From Gammaproteobacteria bacterium (GTDB lineage: Bacteria; Pseudomonadota; Gammaproteobacteria; Xanthomonadales; Wenzhouxiangellaceae), in the NCBI GenBank assembly GCA_021772955.1, contig JAJFKZ010000176.1, positions 1 through 39,097 of the forward strand: a stretch of DNA of 39,097 nt, read 5' to 3'. The first letter of the stretch is position 1, and the number at the start of each line of letters is the position of its first letter. The notes beneath the pieces were generated by a model. That model ran no database searches and had not been told where the DNA came from. It saw only the letters and a program-made list of their open reading frames with translations. Positions 11,553 to 39,097 of this stretch are shown here, in pieces. The translations under genes were made by a program, and so were the position numbers.

Positions 11553-11876
11553 TTAATTCCTTTTAAAAAAATTAGTGAAAAACTTTATCAAGTTAGGGTT
11601 ATCTCTCAAGACTTGAAACAGTCCCAGGCTTGTTTTCTCGACTACGGGTTCTTCGTCGAGCGTAGTATCAATTATGTTAGCCCAAAAAATAGCATGCAAC
11701 ACCTCATGTAAAAGTGTCTCAGCTACTATTTGTGGATCTATACTCGTGTCAACTTGGATCTTTAATTGGTGGGGTGAAAACATGCCATACTTGCCTTGCG
11801 CTGCTGCTTCTGAGCTCTCCCACTCTTCAATTGCAATTGTGAAACCACTTACCTTTATCTTATCTGGTAACTTCAA
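11553..11876 (-). CDS. HExxH zinc metallopeptidase-like protein
   Basis: 107 residues from a TTG start with GGAGG seven bases upstream (at 11883-11887). LLHEVLHAIFW gives His57-Glu58-x2-His61, as in SprT/ImmA-like small metalloproteases. An Asp/Glu-rich stretch (DTTLDEEPVVEKTS) follows that could offer the third ligand. It is the first gene behind the consensus promoter at 11982-12010, so it is probably well expressed. Target unknown; phage proteins of this type may cleave host regulators or act in virion assembly. Confidence 0.7.
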   Translation of the reverse strand: MKLPDKIKVSGFTIAIEEWESSEAAAQGKYGMFSPHQLKIQVDTSIDPQIVAETLLHEVLHAIFWANIIDTTLDEEPVVEKTSLGLFQVLRDNPNLIKFFTNFFKRN

Positions 11877-11931: not shown

Positions 11932-11950
11932 TTTTCCCTGTGAGGGAAAA
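11932..11950. promoter_or_regulatory. leader hairpin (TTTTCCCT/AGGGAAAA)
   Basis: An 8-bp perfect stem with a GTG loop lies in the transcribed leader between the promoter at 11982-12010 and the metallopeptidase gene. It belongs to a set of similar hairpins placed upstream of SDs in this genome (14526-14546, 16264-16286, 20126-20150). A role in mRNA processing or stability is likely; no U-tract follows, so it is not a simple terminator. Confidence 0.6.
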
Positions 11951-11981: not shown

Positions 11982-12010
11982 ATTATACGCTTAAAGAGGG
12001 GAAATGTCAA
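11982..12010 (-). promoter_or_regulatory. consensus sigma70 promoter
   Basis: On the minus strand TTGACA (12005-12010), 17 bases, TATAAT (11982-11987): a perfect match to both boxes at the ideal spacing. It would start transcription near 11975 and feed the metallopeptidase, zinc-ribbon, helicase and primase block. It divides the accessory region from the replication region. Confidence 0.88.
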
Positions 12011-12118: not shown

Positions 12119-12337
12119 CTAATCTACTACGGGTGTTCTTGGCGTTATCAATTCCAGACTTGTATTGTACTTTTCCCTTTCCTTTGGCTCTAGAGACTGC
12201 AAGAATACCATAACCCTTTCCTTCTTCTTTTCTGCTTTAAAGAAGGGTTTATTCTTTCTGGATTTAACTTCTCGTATTAGATTATCAAGTACGTCATCAC
12301 CACTGCTTCCTTTTCTACTTCTATTTTTCCCTTGCAT
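12119..12337 (-). CDS. small basic hypothetical protein
   Basis: 72 residues, Lys/Arg/Ser-rich, probably helical in the middle. The start ATG has GGAGG in the end of the amidotransferase-like gene, overlapping it by 17 bases, which suggests co-translation with it. No family recognised. Confidence 0.5.
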   Translation of the reverse strand: MQGKNRSRKGSSGDDVLDNLIREVKSRKNKPFFKAEKKKERVMVFLQSLEPKEREKYNTSLELITPRTPVVD

Positions 12338-13220
12338 TGGCTTTTACCTCCAAAGGTACTAACTCTGATCCTTCAATAGAGGACAAGCCGAGGGACTCTG
12401 TTAAATACATCTCACTGCCACAACTCATGCAAGTTAGGGCAAACCTATGCTTGCCAAATATTGTGGACGTATCCATTGCCTCCGATTCGGTACAAGTGTC
12501 CCCGCAATCAATACAAGTCACTTCTGGATCTTGTTCTAATGACGTAATGTCAATTGCTGATTTGTCTAGCACTGTTTCTGCACTTTCAAACCATGTTTTA
12601 TAAGTGGGGTAATAATACTCAGAATTCTTCCAAGACCAAACAGCCATATAGCTCGAATTGGAGTAGAAAATTCCATCTTTTTCCAGCCATTCTCCACCCA
12701 TAAGGACTTGTTCACCGTCTGCTTTTAAAAACGCTAGCTTAGACCCCACTATCATGCAATCAAGAAAATTAGTGAATTCTTCTTCACTCCCAAAGACAGC
12801 TTTTTCCAAAATCCACGGAATAGAAAGTGTGCGTCTTATAAATTCCATCGTGTCCGATACCCCGTCTTTAGGAGTTATGTCAAGGATACCATTGTGTGCA
12901 ACACCATGTGGAACGTCTATTTTTTTAGACCTTAGACCTTTTAGTTCCTTTGTTAACGGGAAAGGATGGCAGTTTTCAGGTGTTACAGCCCCCGTAGTTG
13001 CAATCCTAAAATGATAAACAATACTATCAGCCTTTCCCAAGTTATAACCCTTGTAAGTTTGCCAAAAATCTTTGAAGGTCATAAAACCTTTATGGACTCT
13101 GACTACCCCCCCTTTACTGAACATGAACCCGCACCCGTCATCGTTGTTCTCGAAACAAATTTGGAGAGTCTTTTTCGTAGGCGGTTCCACGCCTCTAGGT
13201 TTTGAAATAGCAATACACAT
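12321..13220 (-). CDS. class II glutamine-amidotransferase-like (Ntn hydrolase) protein with C-terminal zinc ribbon
   Basis: 299 residues. Cys2 directly after Met matches the N-terminal nucleophile exposed by Met removal in class II glutamine amidotransferases. FRIATTGAVTPENCHPF (71-87) and VAHNGIL (107-113) match the conserved Arg and HNG elements, and a segment around 176-192 (WLEKDGIFYSNSS) also fits phage members. Cys236, Cys239, Cys264 and Cys267 add a zinc ribbon absent from standard enzymes. It would release ammonia from glutamine or cleave an amide bond. The amidoligase gene lies just upstream, with only a 26-residue micropeptide gene between. SD GGAGGTG seven bases before the ATG. 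Confidence 0.78.
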   Translation of the reverse strand: MCIAISKPRGVEPPTKKTLQICFENNDDGCGFMFSKGGVVRVHKGFMTFKDFWQTYKGYNLGKADSIVYHFRIATTGAVTPENCHPFPLTKELKGLRSKKIDVPHGVAHNGILDITPKDGVSDTMEFIRRTLSIPWILEKAVFGSEEEFTNFLDCMIVGSKLAFLKADGEQVLMGGEWLEKDGIFYSNSSYMAVWSWKNSEYYYPTYKTWFESAETVLDKSAIDITSLEQDPEVTCIDCGDTCTESEAMDTSTIFGKHRFALTCMSCGSEMYLTESLGLSSIEGSELVPLEVKANAREK

Positions 13221-13222
13221 TT

Positions 13223-13303
13223 TTATTCACCTCCATTTAAAGTTAATACTACTGCTAGTGCAGCCATAACTAGAATTAGTGCTAATATTGTCACACCATA
13301 CAA
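13223..13303 (-). CDS. 26-residue membrane micropeptide between amidoligase and amidotransferase-like genes
   Basis: TTG start at 13301-13303 with GGAGG six bases upstream; stop TAA at 13223-13225. Residues 4-22 form one hydrophobic helix, and the end is Asn-Gly-Gly-Glu. The last codons double as the SD of the next gene, so the Gly-Gly-Glu end may be a by-product of that overlap. The clear SD on both sides of a 145-base gap supports translation. It is not detectable by length-limited gene callers. Confidence 0.55.
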   Translation of the reverse strand: MYGVTILALILVMAALAVVLTLNGGE

Positions 13304-13322
13304 ATTAAACCTCCTTTTTAAA

Positions 13323-13343
13323 GTTTAAATGGTCTATTATTCT
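13323..13343. repeat. 21-bp leader repeat, copy 1
   Basis: Matches 14915-14935 at 19 of 21 bases. It lies between the amidoligase stop and the SD of the 26-residue micropeptide, so it is part of that peptide's leader. Confidence 0.5.
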
Positions 13344-13364
13344 TGAAGTACCAGCTCTTCACTC

Positions 13365-14507
13365 CTACATGGTAATGTTTGGGAAAGCCTGTCCACTAAA
13401 TCTTGCATTAAGATATGCGCGAAGGTACTTGTACCTCTTTTTAGGTAGGGATTTTAAATACCTTCTCCACGCATTAGCACCGACAATGTTTTGAGTAGAT
13501 GTCTTTTTAACAAAACCAATAACACTATCACAAAATTCAAGAGTGGCTTTCAAAGTCGAAGCAATCAAAGTGCCTCTAAAGAGCCTAAACTCAATGGTTT
13601 TGCTGTTGATAAAGTTTAGTGCCTCGTATCGGTCGCGATGGCTTAACAGGTCTAGCTCCCTTCCAACTGGTACAGATTTAAACTTTGCAAACGCTGTATT
13701 TTCTGCTAAACGCCTAGAAATTGCCTCAAATTGGCCCTGATTGCTGTATAAAAAAACAGCAAGTCGCACCTGTTCAGTTTGAGACAAGACATGCCTACCA
13801 AAGTGGACATGCAAGCCACAACTTTTTGTGTCATGGCTTTTAAAGCCATGATCTTTTAATGCTTTCATAACCTTATCCCACTCGAAGTGGTGTATATGGT
13901 GGTTTAATGTCATGGGATGAGTCACGAGCTCAAACCCATTACTTAAACTTCCATCTTCTTTAAGGTACGCAGCACCTCCTATAAGCAAAGATATGTAATT
14001 TGCTCCATCGTTGATATCCCCGACCTCTAACTCTACCTCTAACTCTACCCCAAAATAGTTTTTCCCGTCAATTTCTGCTAGCCTGCCACTTACAATCTTT
14101 CCTTTGTCGTGGAAAATAGGGGGTGGACGGTAGTCAAACTTTCTGATAACGTGGGCTCCTTCGGCGCAAGAACGGCAAATACCTTCACTATGATAACTCT
14201 GATTCTGCTGAAGGAGGTCACACTCTTCGCAGTAGAAGAAAGAGTGGTCGCGACAACTGCCACAAATTGTTATGACATTTCCCGCCCTACTAACAGCGGG
14301 ACGCCGTGTGCTGTTACTACCTTCTTGCTCACCCCCACAATACTGACAAATCCAATCTGGTTCTGTTGATGCAATCGTGCAACTTTCAACTCTCAACGGA
14401 GGCTGTTCACGATTATGTTCCCTTACTCCCCTTCTTACTTCTTGGCACTCAGAGCAATAACACCCTGGTGCGGGTTCTGGCCTCAACGGATCATCTGGTG
14501 CTGGCAT
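13365..14507 (-). CDS. putative amidoligase (Amidoligase_2-like) with N-terminal zinc-knuckle array
   Basis: 380 residues. The first 115 hold five Cys knuckles (C18/C21, C54/C57, C82/C85, C93/C96, C111/C114). The catalytic part carries GVELEVE (153-159), EDGSL with Glu193 in GFELVTHP, CGLHVHFG (230-237), and the RYEALNF...TIEFRLFRGT block (293-313). These are the marks of the glutamine-synthetase-like amidoligase group, enzymes expected to join a carboxylate to an amine using ATP. The substrate is unknown. The gene has its own hairpin leader (14526-14546) and SD AAAGGAGG. It is followed by the micropeptide and the glutamine-amidotransferase-like gene. Confidence 0.82.
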   Translation of the reverse strand: MPAPDDPLRPEPAPGCYCSECQEVRRGVREHNREQPPLRVESCTIASTEPDWICQYCGGEQEGSNSTRRPAVSRAGNVITICGSCRDHSFFYCEECDLLQQNQSYHSEGICRSCAEGAHVIRKFDYRPPPIFHDKGKIVSGRLAEIDGKNYFGVELEVELEVGDINDGANYISLLIGGAAYLKEDGSLSNGFELVTHPMTLNHHIHHFEWDKVMKALKDHGFKSHDTKSCGLHVHFGRHVLSQTEQVRLAVFLYSNQGQFEAISRRLAENTAFAKFKSVPVGRELDLLSHRDRYEALNFINSKTIEFRLFRGTLIASTLKATLEFCDSVIGFVKKTSTQNIVGANAWRRYLKSLPKKRYKYLRAYLNARFSGQAFPNITM

Positions 14508-14525: not shown

Positions 14526-14546
14526 GTTTTCCCTTACAGGGAAAAC
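14526..14546. promoter_or_regulatory. leader hairpin before the amidoligase SD
   Basis: GTTTTCCC (14526-14533) pairs with GGGAAAAC (14539-14546); an extra T-A pair closes a 3-base loop. On the minus strand it is followed directly by CTTAAAGGAGG and the amidoligase ATG. Same design as the hairpins at 16264-16286 and 20126-20150. Confidence 0.65.
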
Positions 14547-14557
14547 TACTTGTTATT

Positions 14558-14890
14558 TCAATCAAATTTAAACGTAAGTACTACTTGATCCACGTTTAAC
14601 GACCCATGTTTTGTTTCTATATCCATATTGTGCTTTGAATGATGCTTCAACTCAATACGGTACTTGTCGTTCTCCCATCCTATACCAGCAAAAGCCCCCC
14701 CATTGCCAATACTTGATTGTTGTTTTGATTTCGACACATAGGGTTCTAGTTTGGCGAAAAAACCACTATTTTCAAACCTTTCTTCTATTTTGAGACTTAC
14801 TACAAGATCTTCCGTGTAAGGCGTGATTTCATTTAAATACAAGCCTGCATTCGTTTGCAGGGCGAGCGCTATCCCTAGCTCTACTAACAT
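14558..14890 (-). CDS. secreted beta-rich protein, possible small outer-membrane barrel (PagL/acyloxyacyl-hydrolase-like?)
   Basis: 110 residues starting behind AGAGGAGG. Residues 1-15 are hydrophobic with small residues (signal-peptide-like: LGIALALQTNAG). The rest alternates polar and hydrophobic residues in strand-length runs and ends VVLTFKFD, resembling the final strand of outer-membrane barrels (though a terminal Asp follows the Phe). YRIELKHHSKHNMD recalls the His-Ser region of lipid A deacylase PagL and related host-derived barrels, but this is only a pattern match. If correct, it may alter the host surface to block superinfection. Family assignment is weak; a secreted beta protein is more certain. 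Confidence 0.5.
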   Translation of the reverse strand: MLVELGIALALQTNAGLYLNEITPYTEDLVVSLKIEERFENSGFFAKLEPYVSKSKQQSSIGNGGAFAGIGWENDKYRIELKHHSKHNMDIETKHGSLNVDQVVLTFKFD

Positions 14891-14940: not shown

Positions 14941-15672
14941 CTAGCCATTGGAGCTAGATCTTAAATCAATACCAGATATTTTATAAAATATCTCTGTATC
15001 AAAATTGGGAAGAAGCATTACCTTCACCCTATCAAGAGGATCAGCTTCATCCCACGACCTCTTGAACGCTTCTTTATAGGTTTCATTTTCTTCTTGCTGA
15101 AAACGAAGAAAAGCAGGTTTGTACGCCGCTTTCCAGATGTCAAGCTCCACTTCTTTTTCAAATGTACGAACGTGCGTAGGCTCGTTCGTGTTAAAAAATC
15201 CTGAATTACTATCTCCTGAGTTATAATCCCCTGAGTTAAACTCCCCTGAATTATGATCGCCTGAGTTTCTATTTCCTGAATTACTATCTCCTGAGTTATA
15301 ATGGCCTGAGTTACAACAGCCTGAATTATAATGGCCTGAGTTATAATGGCCTGAGTTATGCCAGCCCTTGTCAAGAATTGCCAAAACCTCCTTGTCTGAT
15401 AAGACTCTTAATATCTTTATTTTGTTAGTTACACCCTTATGCCTATTGGGCTCTTCGTATACAATATCCCCTAATATTTCCACTTCTGCATACTTATTTT
15501 CTAGTACAGAATCTTTCACATCATAGTAGTTTAGGGTGAGCACTAGCTCTTTGCAAAAATGAAACCCCCTCGTACAAAGTATAGGTTTTAACCCTAGAAG
15601 GTGCGTCTCACCTTCTTTGTATTGAAACCCTCTACACTTTAGCTGTCTATCAAATGCTTTATAAGCTTTCAT
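14941..15672 (-). CDS. pentapeptide-repeat protein with DUF7666-like N-terminal domain
   Basis: 243 residues. The N-terminal 100 (YKAFDRQLKCRGFQY...GFHFCKE) match a phage/bacterial domain that commonly precedes pentapeptide repeats (DUF7666-like, from memory). Residues 106-160 are eleven NSGxx units (such as NSGHY and NSGDS), encoded by 15-base repeats at about 15192-15357. The C-terminal 80 residues are helical and acidic/aromatic. Pentapeptide repeats fold as a square beta-helix and can mimic DNA, but the Asn-Ser-Gly type has no known phage function. SD AAAAGGAG before the ATG. Confidence 0.75.
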   Translation of the reverse strand: MKAYKAFDRQLKCRGFQYKEGETHLLGLKPILCTRGFHFCKELVLTLNYYDVKDSVLENKYAEVEILGDIVYEEPNRHKGVTNKIKILRVLSDKEVLAILDKGWHNSGHYNSGHYNSGCCNSGHYNSGDSNSGNRNSGDHNSGEFNSGDYNSGDSNSGFFNTNEPTHVRTFEKEVELDIWKAAYKPAFLRFQQEENETYKEAFKRSWDEADPLDRVKVMLLPNFDTEIFYKISGIDLRSSSNG

Positions 15673-16318: not shown

Positions 16319-16346
16319 ATTATAACACTCTATCCCATGCTGTCAA
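16319..16346 (-). promoter_or_regulatory. sigma70 promoter
   Basis: On the minus strand TTGACA (16341-16346), 16 bases, TATAAT (16319-16324). It precedes the hairpin leader and the small membrane-protein/zinc-knuckle/pentapeptide gene group. Confidence 0.83.
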
Positions 16347-17439: not shown

Positions 17440-18009
17440 CTAAGACTTTTGTACTTCACAAAAGTCTTTTTGACATACGCCACAATTTATTGTCCCTTCA
17501 TCTAACACCTTTTGACTAACTCTTAGAATGCGTTCACACCCACAAACTAGTTTTATCATGCGTGAACCTGGTTTCTTCTTTGGAGTAGTATCTAGCAGCA
17601 TTTGAGGCATATCTCCAAAGCTTGACTTTAAAGCGTTTAAACGCTGAGCTAGTTCATCACCCACAATTGTTGCAGTAGGCTTACCTTCTAATCCTATCTT
17701 GTTCATAACGGCTTTAAAGCCATTCCTATGTCCTTTGTCTACTCCGATACTTACATGTATTAATTCATGGCATAGAACTCCAAGTACTTCAATACAGTTG
17801 TTTTCTTTAAAGGTGGTAGGGCTTATAAATATAGCTTCAACTCCTCGTTGTTGCCAGGCTTCACCAACACTCCTTTTCTTAGTAGCTAAAGCCCCTTTAG
17901 AGGGAAATCCGTAGCTTATATGACACTTGCCAGCTAGTTCTTCTTCACAAAAGATGTGTTGTGCTAGCACCTCCTTTGCATTTTCAAGCCATGTATTAGC
18001 ATTTTGCAT
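17440..18009 (-). CDS. SprT-like zinc metalloprotease with C-terminal zinc ribbon
   Basis: 189 residues. HELIH (81-85) followed by GHRNGFK (His94) matches the SprT/Spartan pattern of three metal ligands and catalytic Glu82. Cys156, Cys158, Cys176 and Cys179 form the zinc ribbon usual in this family. Spartan-type enzymes cleave proteins bound or crosslinked to DNA; the phage role is unknown. It lies among the first genes behind the early minus-strand promoter. SD GAGGG. Confidence 0.82.
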   Translation of the reverse strand: MQNANTWLENAKEVLAQHIFCEEELAGKCHISYGFPSKGALATKKRSVGEAWQQRGVEAIFISPTTFKENNCIEVLGVLCHELIHVSIGVDKGHRNGFKAVMNKIGLEGKPTATIVGDELAQRLNALKSSFGDMPQMLLDTTPKKKPGSRMIKLVCGCERILRVSQKVLDEGTINCGVCQKDFCEVQKS

Positions 18010-38557: not shown

Positions 38558-39097
38558 CTAAAGGGTACAATGTACGTCCCAATCACCGGCATAGAGTTTT
38601 ACCTTAGCGCACCCTGGTACTGTAGGTGACAACTCTTTTTGATGTCCATACCCTTCCAGGTATCCCATGAAGCACCCAGTAGCAACCATCAGTTGCTTTC
38701 TAATTTCACCCGACACGCCATTGATCCGCATGCGCTCAGTAATGAGCTTGCGGTGATGGTGCCCACGCAGGTAAACATCACAACTGTCAATTCTCGTTGC
38801 TTGATCCTGTAACTTTTTAGCCACTGAAGAAGTGGCGCATCCCCCACCAGTTCCATGTGTGGCATGAATCCTGTACTTGTTCTTTCCAACCTTTAAATTA
38901 AGTAAGGCATCAAACCCACACCAAACCTGATCCAATTCCTTACAGATGTACTTCTCAGGACTGAATCCACTCTCTTTCCATGATCGTAGACTGTGATTTG
39001 ATTCTGTCCAAGCCAGAATCTTACCAGCTTTTGCAAGTGGTTTTAAGAGTCTGATAGCCTCATCTCTTTGTTCTTCTACAGACATTACTTGGTCATG
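38558..39097 (-). CDS. metallophosphoesterase, C-terminal part (gene continues from the other contig end)
   Basis: Continuation of the gene at 1-369 of this window. This part holds the third motif as ESNH (Asn110-His111 of the joined protein), a His in THGTGGG (156) and the RGHHHR motif (His189-191), completing a calcineurin-like phosphoesterase. ESNH replaces the usual GNHE/D. Bases 38957-39097 repeat 1-141, so those codons are counted once. The stop is TAG at 38558-38560; the next gene's SD follows 32 bases on. Confidence 0.85.
   Translation of the reverse strand, partial: HDQVMSVEEQRDEAIRLLKPLAKAGKILAWTESNHSLRSWKESGFSPEKYICKELDQVWCGFDALLNLKVGKNKYRIHATHGTGGGCATSSVAKKLQDQATRIDSCDVYLRGHHHRKLITERMRINGVSGEIRKQLMVATGCFMGYLEGYGHQKELSPTVPGCAKVKLYAGDWDVHCTL
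38957..39097. repeat. terminal direct repeat, right copy
   Basis: Identical to 1-141; see the left copy. Removing it leaves a 38956-bp circle. Confidence 0.95.

Follow-up and report, generated by a model that had tools for sequence, protein, structure and literature searches.

A two-gene module of a zinc-ribbon amidoligase and a class II amidotransferase-like protein in a phage genome, and its recurrence in viral and clostridial genomes

A zinc-ribbon amidoligase and a protein resembling class II glutamine amidotransferases (GATases) are encoded almost side by side in a small phage genome; do they act together, and if so, what would they make, and on whose molecules? The 39,097 nt analyzed here (the window) are the whole of contig C86 of a metagenome-assembled genome (MAG). 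The first 141 nt are identical to the last 141 (1–141 and 38957–39097), which implies a closed circular phage genome of ~38,956 bp, complete and binned within a bacterial MAG. The phage is podovirus-like, with an SU10-type portal, a terminase, a PolA-type polymerase, and a DnaB-like helicase; searches for RNA families and tRNAs found none. Among viral contigs the portal has one close relative, and none was found for the amidoligase, the GATase, or the DnaB-like protein. The amidoligase–GATase gene group is on the minus strand in the replication half (early region), beside replication genes. SprT-like or metallopeptidase-like genes with HExxH-type motifs are also found in the early region (11553–11876 and 17440–18009, minus strand). 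The features of the gene group are:

13365–14507, minus strand: zinc-ribbon amidoligase, 380 aa, first gene of the pair (Pfam Amidoligase_2, phrog_16683, fold of the model)
13503–14054, minus strand: glutamine synthetase (GS)-like catalytic core of the amidoligase, about residues 152–335 (invariant residues, fold match)
14160–14462, minus strand: five N-terminal CxxC knuckles of the amidoligase, about residues 16–116, probable zinc ribbons (cysteine pattern)
12321–13220, minus strand: class II (Ntn) glutamine amidotransferase-like protein, 299 aa, second gene of the pair (profile, model, phrog_25883)
12636–13220, minus strand: Ntn glutaminase domain of the GATase, residues 1–195, with Cys2, Arg72, HNG at 109–111, and Asp123 (conservation, GlmS alignment)
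12420–12515, minus strand: probable C-terminal zinc ribbon of the GATase (CxxC at 236 and 264)
13223–13303, minus strand: putative 26-aa hydrophobic micropeptide between the two enzymes, MYGVTILALILVMAALAVVLTLNGGE (TTG start, AGGAGG upstream)
12119–12337, minus strand: small basic ORF, 72 aa, overlapping the end of the GATase gene by 17 bp
14527–14545, no strand assigned: hairpin directly upstream of the amidoligase, TTTTCCCTTACAGGGAAAA (pattern scan)
11932–11950, no strand assigned: second copy of the hairpin, past the far end of the gene group, TTTTCCCTGTGAGGGAAAA (pattern scan)

The ORFs described in an initial annotation of this DNA were all recovered where it had placed them, and their translations contain the motifs it had named (GVELEVE, CGLHVHFG, TIEFRLFRGT, and MC...HNG). 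The amidoligase family it had proposed was borne out by a search against Pfam Amidoligase_2 (PF12224; 42.1 bits against a cutoff of 22, E = 1.2e-10), and the protein also matches phrog_16683 (E = 2.7e-42). In an alignment of 66 sequences, E155, E157, D185, S187, E193, G231, H233, R266, N298, E306, and R308 are invariant and H235 is at least 90% conserved; the GxExE, HxH, and ExR active-site motifs of Amidoligase_2 and the GS-like COOH-NH2 ligases are present and conserved. A structural model built on 61 sequences (pLDDT 82) has a GS-like fold, with Z-scores of 12.7 for YbdK (matching residues 148–374), 12.3 for glutamate-cysteine ligase (GCL), and 12.0 for GS; the Pup enzymes Dop and PafA were matched by Foldseek as well. 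The conserved residues align with motifs of Escherichia coli GlnA in an alignment of low probability. Their catalytic meaning, like that of the conserved GATase residues, we take to be the one established for GS and GlmS. Overall, the protein is an Amidoligase_2 enzyme of GS/YbdK fold with predicted ligase activity.

For the GATase the initial assignment stood, by another route than the single-sequence family search proposed for it: the sequence scores only 17.5 bits against Pfam GATase_4, under the cutoff of 23, but its family profile matches the glutaminase domain of GlmS (1xff) at E = 8.8e-11, hhalign gives a probability of 97% with E. coli GlmS, phrog_25883 matches at E = 2.4e-8, and a structural model (pLDDT 79) is equally close to GlmS (Z = 14.6) and EgtC (Z = 14.5). 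Because profile, hhalign, and model all match GlmS, the assignment is secure despite the sub-cutoff Pfam score. Across 77 sequences, M1, C2, G31, H70, R72, T75, H85, P86, H109, N110, and G111 are invariant, with D123 at least 90% conserved; the catalytic residues align with the GlmS motifs, and the class II set of Cys nucleophile, Arg, HNG, and Asp is complete. (Narrower alignments were used for pattern scans; those of 10 and 8 sequences were too divergent.) The protein is a homologue of the Ntn class II glutamine amidotransferases, and its predicted glutaminase site is intact.

Both proteins carry cysteine knuckles, as had been noticed at the outset. The amidoligase has exactly five N-terminal CxxC motifs (at residues 18, 54, 82, 93, and 111), and 61 relatives show full or at least 90% conservation of C18, C54, C57, C82, C85, C93, C96, and C114; the GATase has two C-terminal CxxC motifs. 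Zinc binding by both modules is read from this CxxC pattern and is probable on that basis. Of 82 representative amidoligases, a simple motif count gives 73 with at least two N-terminal CxxC, and a stricter core definition gives 74; under the stricter definition, all 83 clostridial copies have at least five. At least two C-terminal CxxC occur in 41 of 82 representative GATases (simple motif count).

The initial annotation had also drawn attention to a micropeptide between the enzymes and a small basic protein at the end of the second. The micropeptide ORF is plausibly real, judging from its sequence, but it lies outside the conserved module, since the intergenic gap in most relatives is only −10 to +35 bp. 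The basic ORF does overlap the GATase end; it has no significant match in Pfam or PHROG family searches. Both are local neighbors rather than conserved partners. The two hairpins share the pattern TTTTCCCT-NNN-AGGGAAAA and bracket the gene group, with 0.03 chance matches expected in the window; they could be terminators, mark sites of processing, or delimit a mobile cassette. Two promoters that match the sigma-70 consensus perfectly (12/12) lie on the minus strand, one upstream (16319–16346, also with an extended −10) and one downstream (11982–12010) of the module. Directly upstream of the amidoligase, 14558–14890 (minus strand) encodes a 110-aa protein with no Pfam or PHROG match, whose sequence looks like that of a small PagL-type beta-barrel. 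Also just upstream, at 14941–15672 (minus strand), is a DUF7666 protein with pentapeptide repeats and a 15-nt DNA period; in Clostridioides phage AR1086-1 (locus L005, 2947–3894) a related protein holds the corresponding position upstream of its amidoligase, as in none of the other loci surveyed.

The earlier suggestion that the two enzymes function as a pair is supported by surveys of gene order, which cover the relatives closest to the window proteins. A four-sequence amidoligase profile identified 367 stretches with relatives in IMG/VR, the best 80 of which were kept. A GATase was detected by HMM in 77 of these 80. Of the remaining loci, L019 and L026 run into a contig edge, and L025 has both a GGACT gene and a divergent class II GATase (Pfam GATase_6, 2e-9) downstream. 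Among these best 80, a class II GATase thus adjoins the amidoligase in all 78 loci untruncated by a contig end. From the GATase side, an amidoligase is present in 79 of the 80 closest viral loci, and the sole exception starts at a contig edge. Overall the same pair recurs in more than 150 other virus contigs. The 164 viral pairs form 82 clusters when grouped at 70% identity. In every pair the two genes share a strand, in 160 the amidoligase precedes the GATase, and most pairs have a stop-start overlap or a short gap, within the −10 to +35 bp range given above. Such an arrangement is what would be expected of translationally coupled subunits. Apart from the case at a contig end (L102), only one class II GATase was found away from an amidoligase in 1.41 Mb of viral loci, and the adjacency is far above chance. 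Protein distances of the two enzymes are correlated (Mantel r 0.36 for 41 pairs; 0 of 2000 permutations). The viral loci have no conserved third gene, and no fused amidoligase–GATase ORF was found in 172 loci. Two distant phage amidoligases without knuckles (L005 and L010) have no GATase hit nearby. Among GenBank phages, the pair is found in Marvin (gp105/106), Methylophilales (MEP401/402), and a Manatee Spring podovirus, and in looser form in Bifidobacterium and Christensenellales phages; hosts of the pair, which include mycobacteria, Clostridia, and Methylophilales, differ widely in envelope.

In GTDB genomes, a GATase is present in 78 of the best 80 amidoligase loci, nearly all from Ruminococcus and other Clostridia. 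A DUF960 gene is found in 63 of these 80, typically just upstream, and in two viral loci. DUF1643 occurs in a few Clostridia loci, and Ruminococcus flavefaciens genomes have several zinc-ribbon amidoligase–GATase pairs each (both among loci L172–L251). A MobA-type relaxase is nearby in 32 of the 80 (a raw count), and resolvase and integrase families dominate the genes downstream of the pair; the proximity of these genes points to mobilizable elements as carriers of the clostridial pair. Since the pairing recurs both in virus contigs and on mobile elements, the two genes almost certainly work as one system.

Other Amidoligase_2 proteins have other partners. In a chromosomal survey of the host's phylum, the family was matched in 17 of 299 genomes (the window's own included), and a Peptidase_C26 gene is beside it in 12 of 14 high-scoring cases. 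A GGACT gene accompanies the amidoligase in L025 and in L278; in the latter the module is expanded, one contig (3525–15800) carrying in tandem three divergent amidoligases, a class II GATase, and GGACT. Amidoligase_2 thus occurs with partners of three unrelated folds, which have in common that they cleave a gamma-glutamyl-nitrogen bond. Bringing these cases together is new here; individual amidoligase neighborhoods were reportedly described by Iyer et al. in 2009. We know of no case in which Peptidase_C26 or GGACT serves as an ammonia donor.

How the two enzymes might work together is less certain. Our preferred reading, held tentatively at somewhat less than an even chance, is that both genes form one coupled enzyme system, borne by phages and mobile elements, that makes an ATP-driven amide on a host target. 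The Ntn protein would bind glutamine in its conserved Arg72/Asp123 pocket, and Cys2 would cleave the gamma-amide; the GS-fold amidoligase would activate a carboxylate with ATP and couple it to the nitrogen set free, or to an amine supplied in the same manner. A host molecule would thereby gain a new amide, through amidation or a conjugation of gamma-glutamyl type; a protein or an envelope precursor would be the likeliest candidate, with the zinc modules perhaps helping its recognition. The two proteins would presumably form a physical complex, and the substrate would be host-directed. We know of no characterized enzyme in which an Ntn glutaminase subunit supplies a ligase of GS fold. What is established of this reading is the family and fold of each protein, the conservation of their active sites, the near-obligate pairing, and the order of the genes. 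The peptide tag raised as a possibility in the initial annotation received no support from these comparisons. In a LUZ24-like phage under directed evolution, missense changes were found in both the amidoligase and GATase genes (PMC11450229), a hint at a common function. Counting against a coupled system are the lack of any observed complex or fusion, the equal closeness of the GATase model to the hydrolase EgtC and to GlmS, the Peptidase_C26 and GGACT partners of other amidoligases, and the lack of a GATase hit near the amidoligases of L005 and L010.

Some of these same observations suit a different chemistry: the amidoligase would attach gamma-glutamyl to an amine or a peptide, and the GATase-like protein, rather than donating ammonia, would be a gamma-glutamyl amidohydrolase that removes the group later or, in a variant, salvages glutamate from host gamma-glutamyl compounds. 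Such writing and removal is known from EgtA/EgtC and PuuA/PuuD, and it would account for the GlmS–EgtC tie, for YbdK and glutamate-cysteine ligase as the closest folds to the amidoligase, and for alternative partners that are hydrolases of gamma-glutamyl-nitrogen bonds. In the known pathways, however, another enzyme takes over after the writing step and before removal, and no third gene is conserved here; if both proteins were always made together, the cycle would be futile unless the host supplied the intermediate enzyme. We consider this explanation possible but on balance unlikely, and supply of nitrogen by the GATase to the amidoligase is slightly ahead of it because of the strict gene order, the overlaps, and the absence of a third gene. 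A further proposal is about what is modified, and would go with either chemistry: the pair might alter peptidoglycan or another surface component, excluding competing phages or elements. Available passages of three papers propose cell-wall modification against superinfection for the phiEco32/RIO-1/LUZ24 cassettes (PMC5498523, PMC10580990, PMC11318856), and competitor exclusion would suit phages and mobilizable elements alike; those passages describe no experimental test at the gene level, though, no envelope gene is conserved beside the pair, and the carriers' envelopes are very different, so that an envelope target seems doubtful rather than probable.

If the pair instead modified the DNA, nucleotides, or virion proteins of the phage itself, the early-region site beside replication genes would fit, and zinc ribbons could bind DNA, but no known base-modification gene was recognized among the window genes scanned, and the relaxase, resolvase, and integrase genes near the clostridial pairs indicate elements without virions. 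That the pair sits on such elements speaks for a host-directed target and makes a role specific to virions or in DNA hypermodification less likely; we give such a role only a slim chance. Comparably slim, at best, are the prospects of auxiliary nitrogen metabolism, with the genes raising host glutamine/glutamate turnover during infection. This has been proposed for Phage-ZRK32, whose genome has an amidoligase, a GATase, a glutathione synthase, and a gamma-glutamylcyclotransferase, although in the passages available the link is drawn from growth with the whole phage (PMC10945688); it would leave the strict two-gene pairing and the zinc modules unexplained, and hosts already have glutamine synthetase. 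The coupled amide-forming system is preferred. Its most ambitious version is a zinc-guided amide ligase, dependent on glutamine and spread across mobile elements, that would covalently modify some conserved component of the host and so help phages and mobilizable elements, for example by blocking host defense or competing elements; as a whole this is speculative and rather unlikely. As a near-obligate two-gene unit with its own zinc modules, the pair narrows the question to two proteins open to purification and assay, and its sharing by phages and clostridial mobile elements moves the likely target from phage-specific to host-directed.

Passages returned by a literature search contain no biochemical test of amidoligase–GATase pairs. 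The pairs have reportedly been annotated in phages since 2009, when Iyer noted them, and in the LUZ24, Marvin, and OM43 phages; what is new here is a two-gene zinc-ribbon version common to phages and mobilizable elements, and the use by chromosomal amidoligases of an unrelated partner, Peptidase_C26. Neither window protein matches the PADLOC 2023 defense models better than E = 0.02. A toxin-antitoxin reading was set aside, both proteins having full enzyme sites.

Among characterized or annotated systems, the chromosomal pairs resemble that of the window in that Amidoligase_2 adjoins a glutamine-amidotransferase-like enzyme, but Peptidase_C26 has the class I GATase fold, and one chromosomal amidoligase (L280) has no CxxC knuckles. 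EgtA/EgtC of the ergothioneine pathway likewise combines a GCL-like ligase with an Ntn gamma-glutamyl hydrolase, EgtC being a top structural match of the GATase; further pathway enzymes act in between, whereas none is conserved beside pairs of the window type. Peptidoglycan amidation by MurT-GatD has the two-gene, glutamine-dependent logic proposed here, with unrelated folds (a Mur ligase and a class I GATase; PMC3267633). LUZ24 gp18/gp19 are distant homologues of the window amidoligase and GATase in identical order, and gp19 also ends in a CxxC pair, but the LUZ24 amidoligase lacks the N-terminal zinc module. The LUZ24/phiEco32/RIO-1 cassette, in the passages available (PMC5498523, PMC3890496), includes three more enzymes, a COOH-NH2 ligase, a RimK-like ATP-grasp protein, and a GGCT; window ORFs have no match better than E = 0.3 to LUZ24 gp16, gp21, and gp22. 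The window thus shares with this cassette type the amidoligase followed by a class II GATase, and because the three extra enzymes are missing and the amidoligase zinc module differs, it is not classified with it. Marvin gp105/gp106 and Methylophilales MEP401/402 are two-gene pairs like that of the window (available passages of PMC10580990), at just 24–33% identity and in different phage lineages; Marvin has cysteine knuckles on both proteins, as in the window, and MEP402 has a long unrelated N-terminal region. The window pair is a two-gene, zinc-ribbon version of the amidoligase–GATase system.
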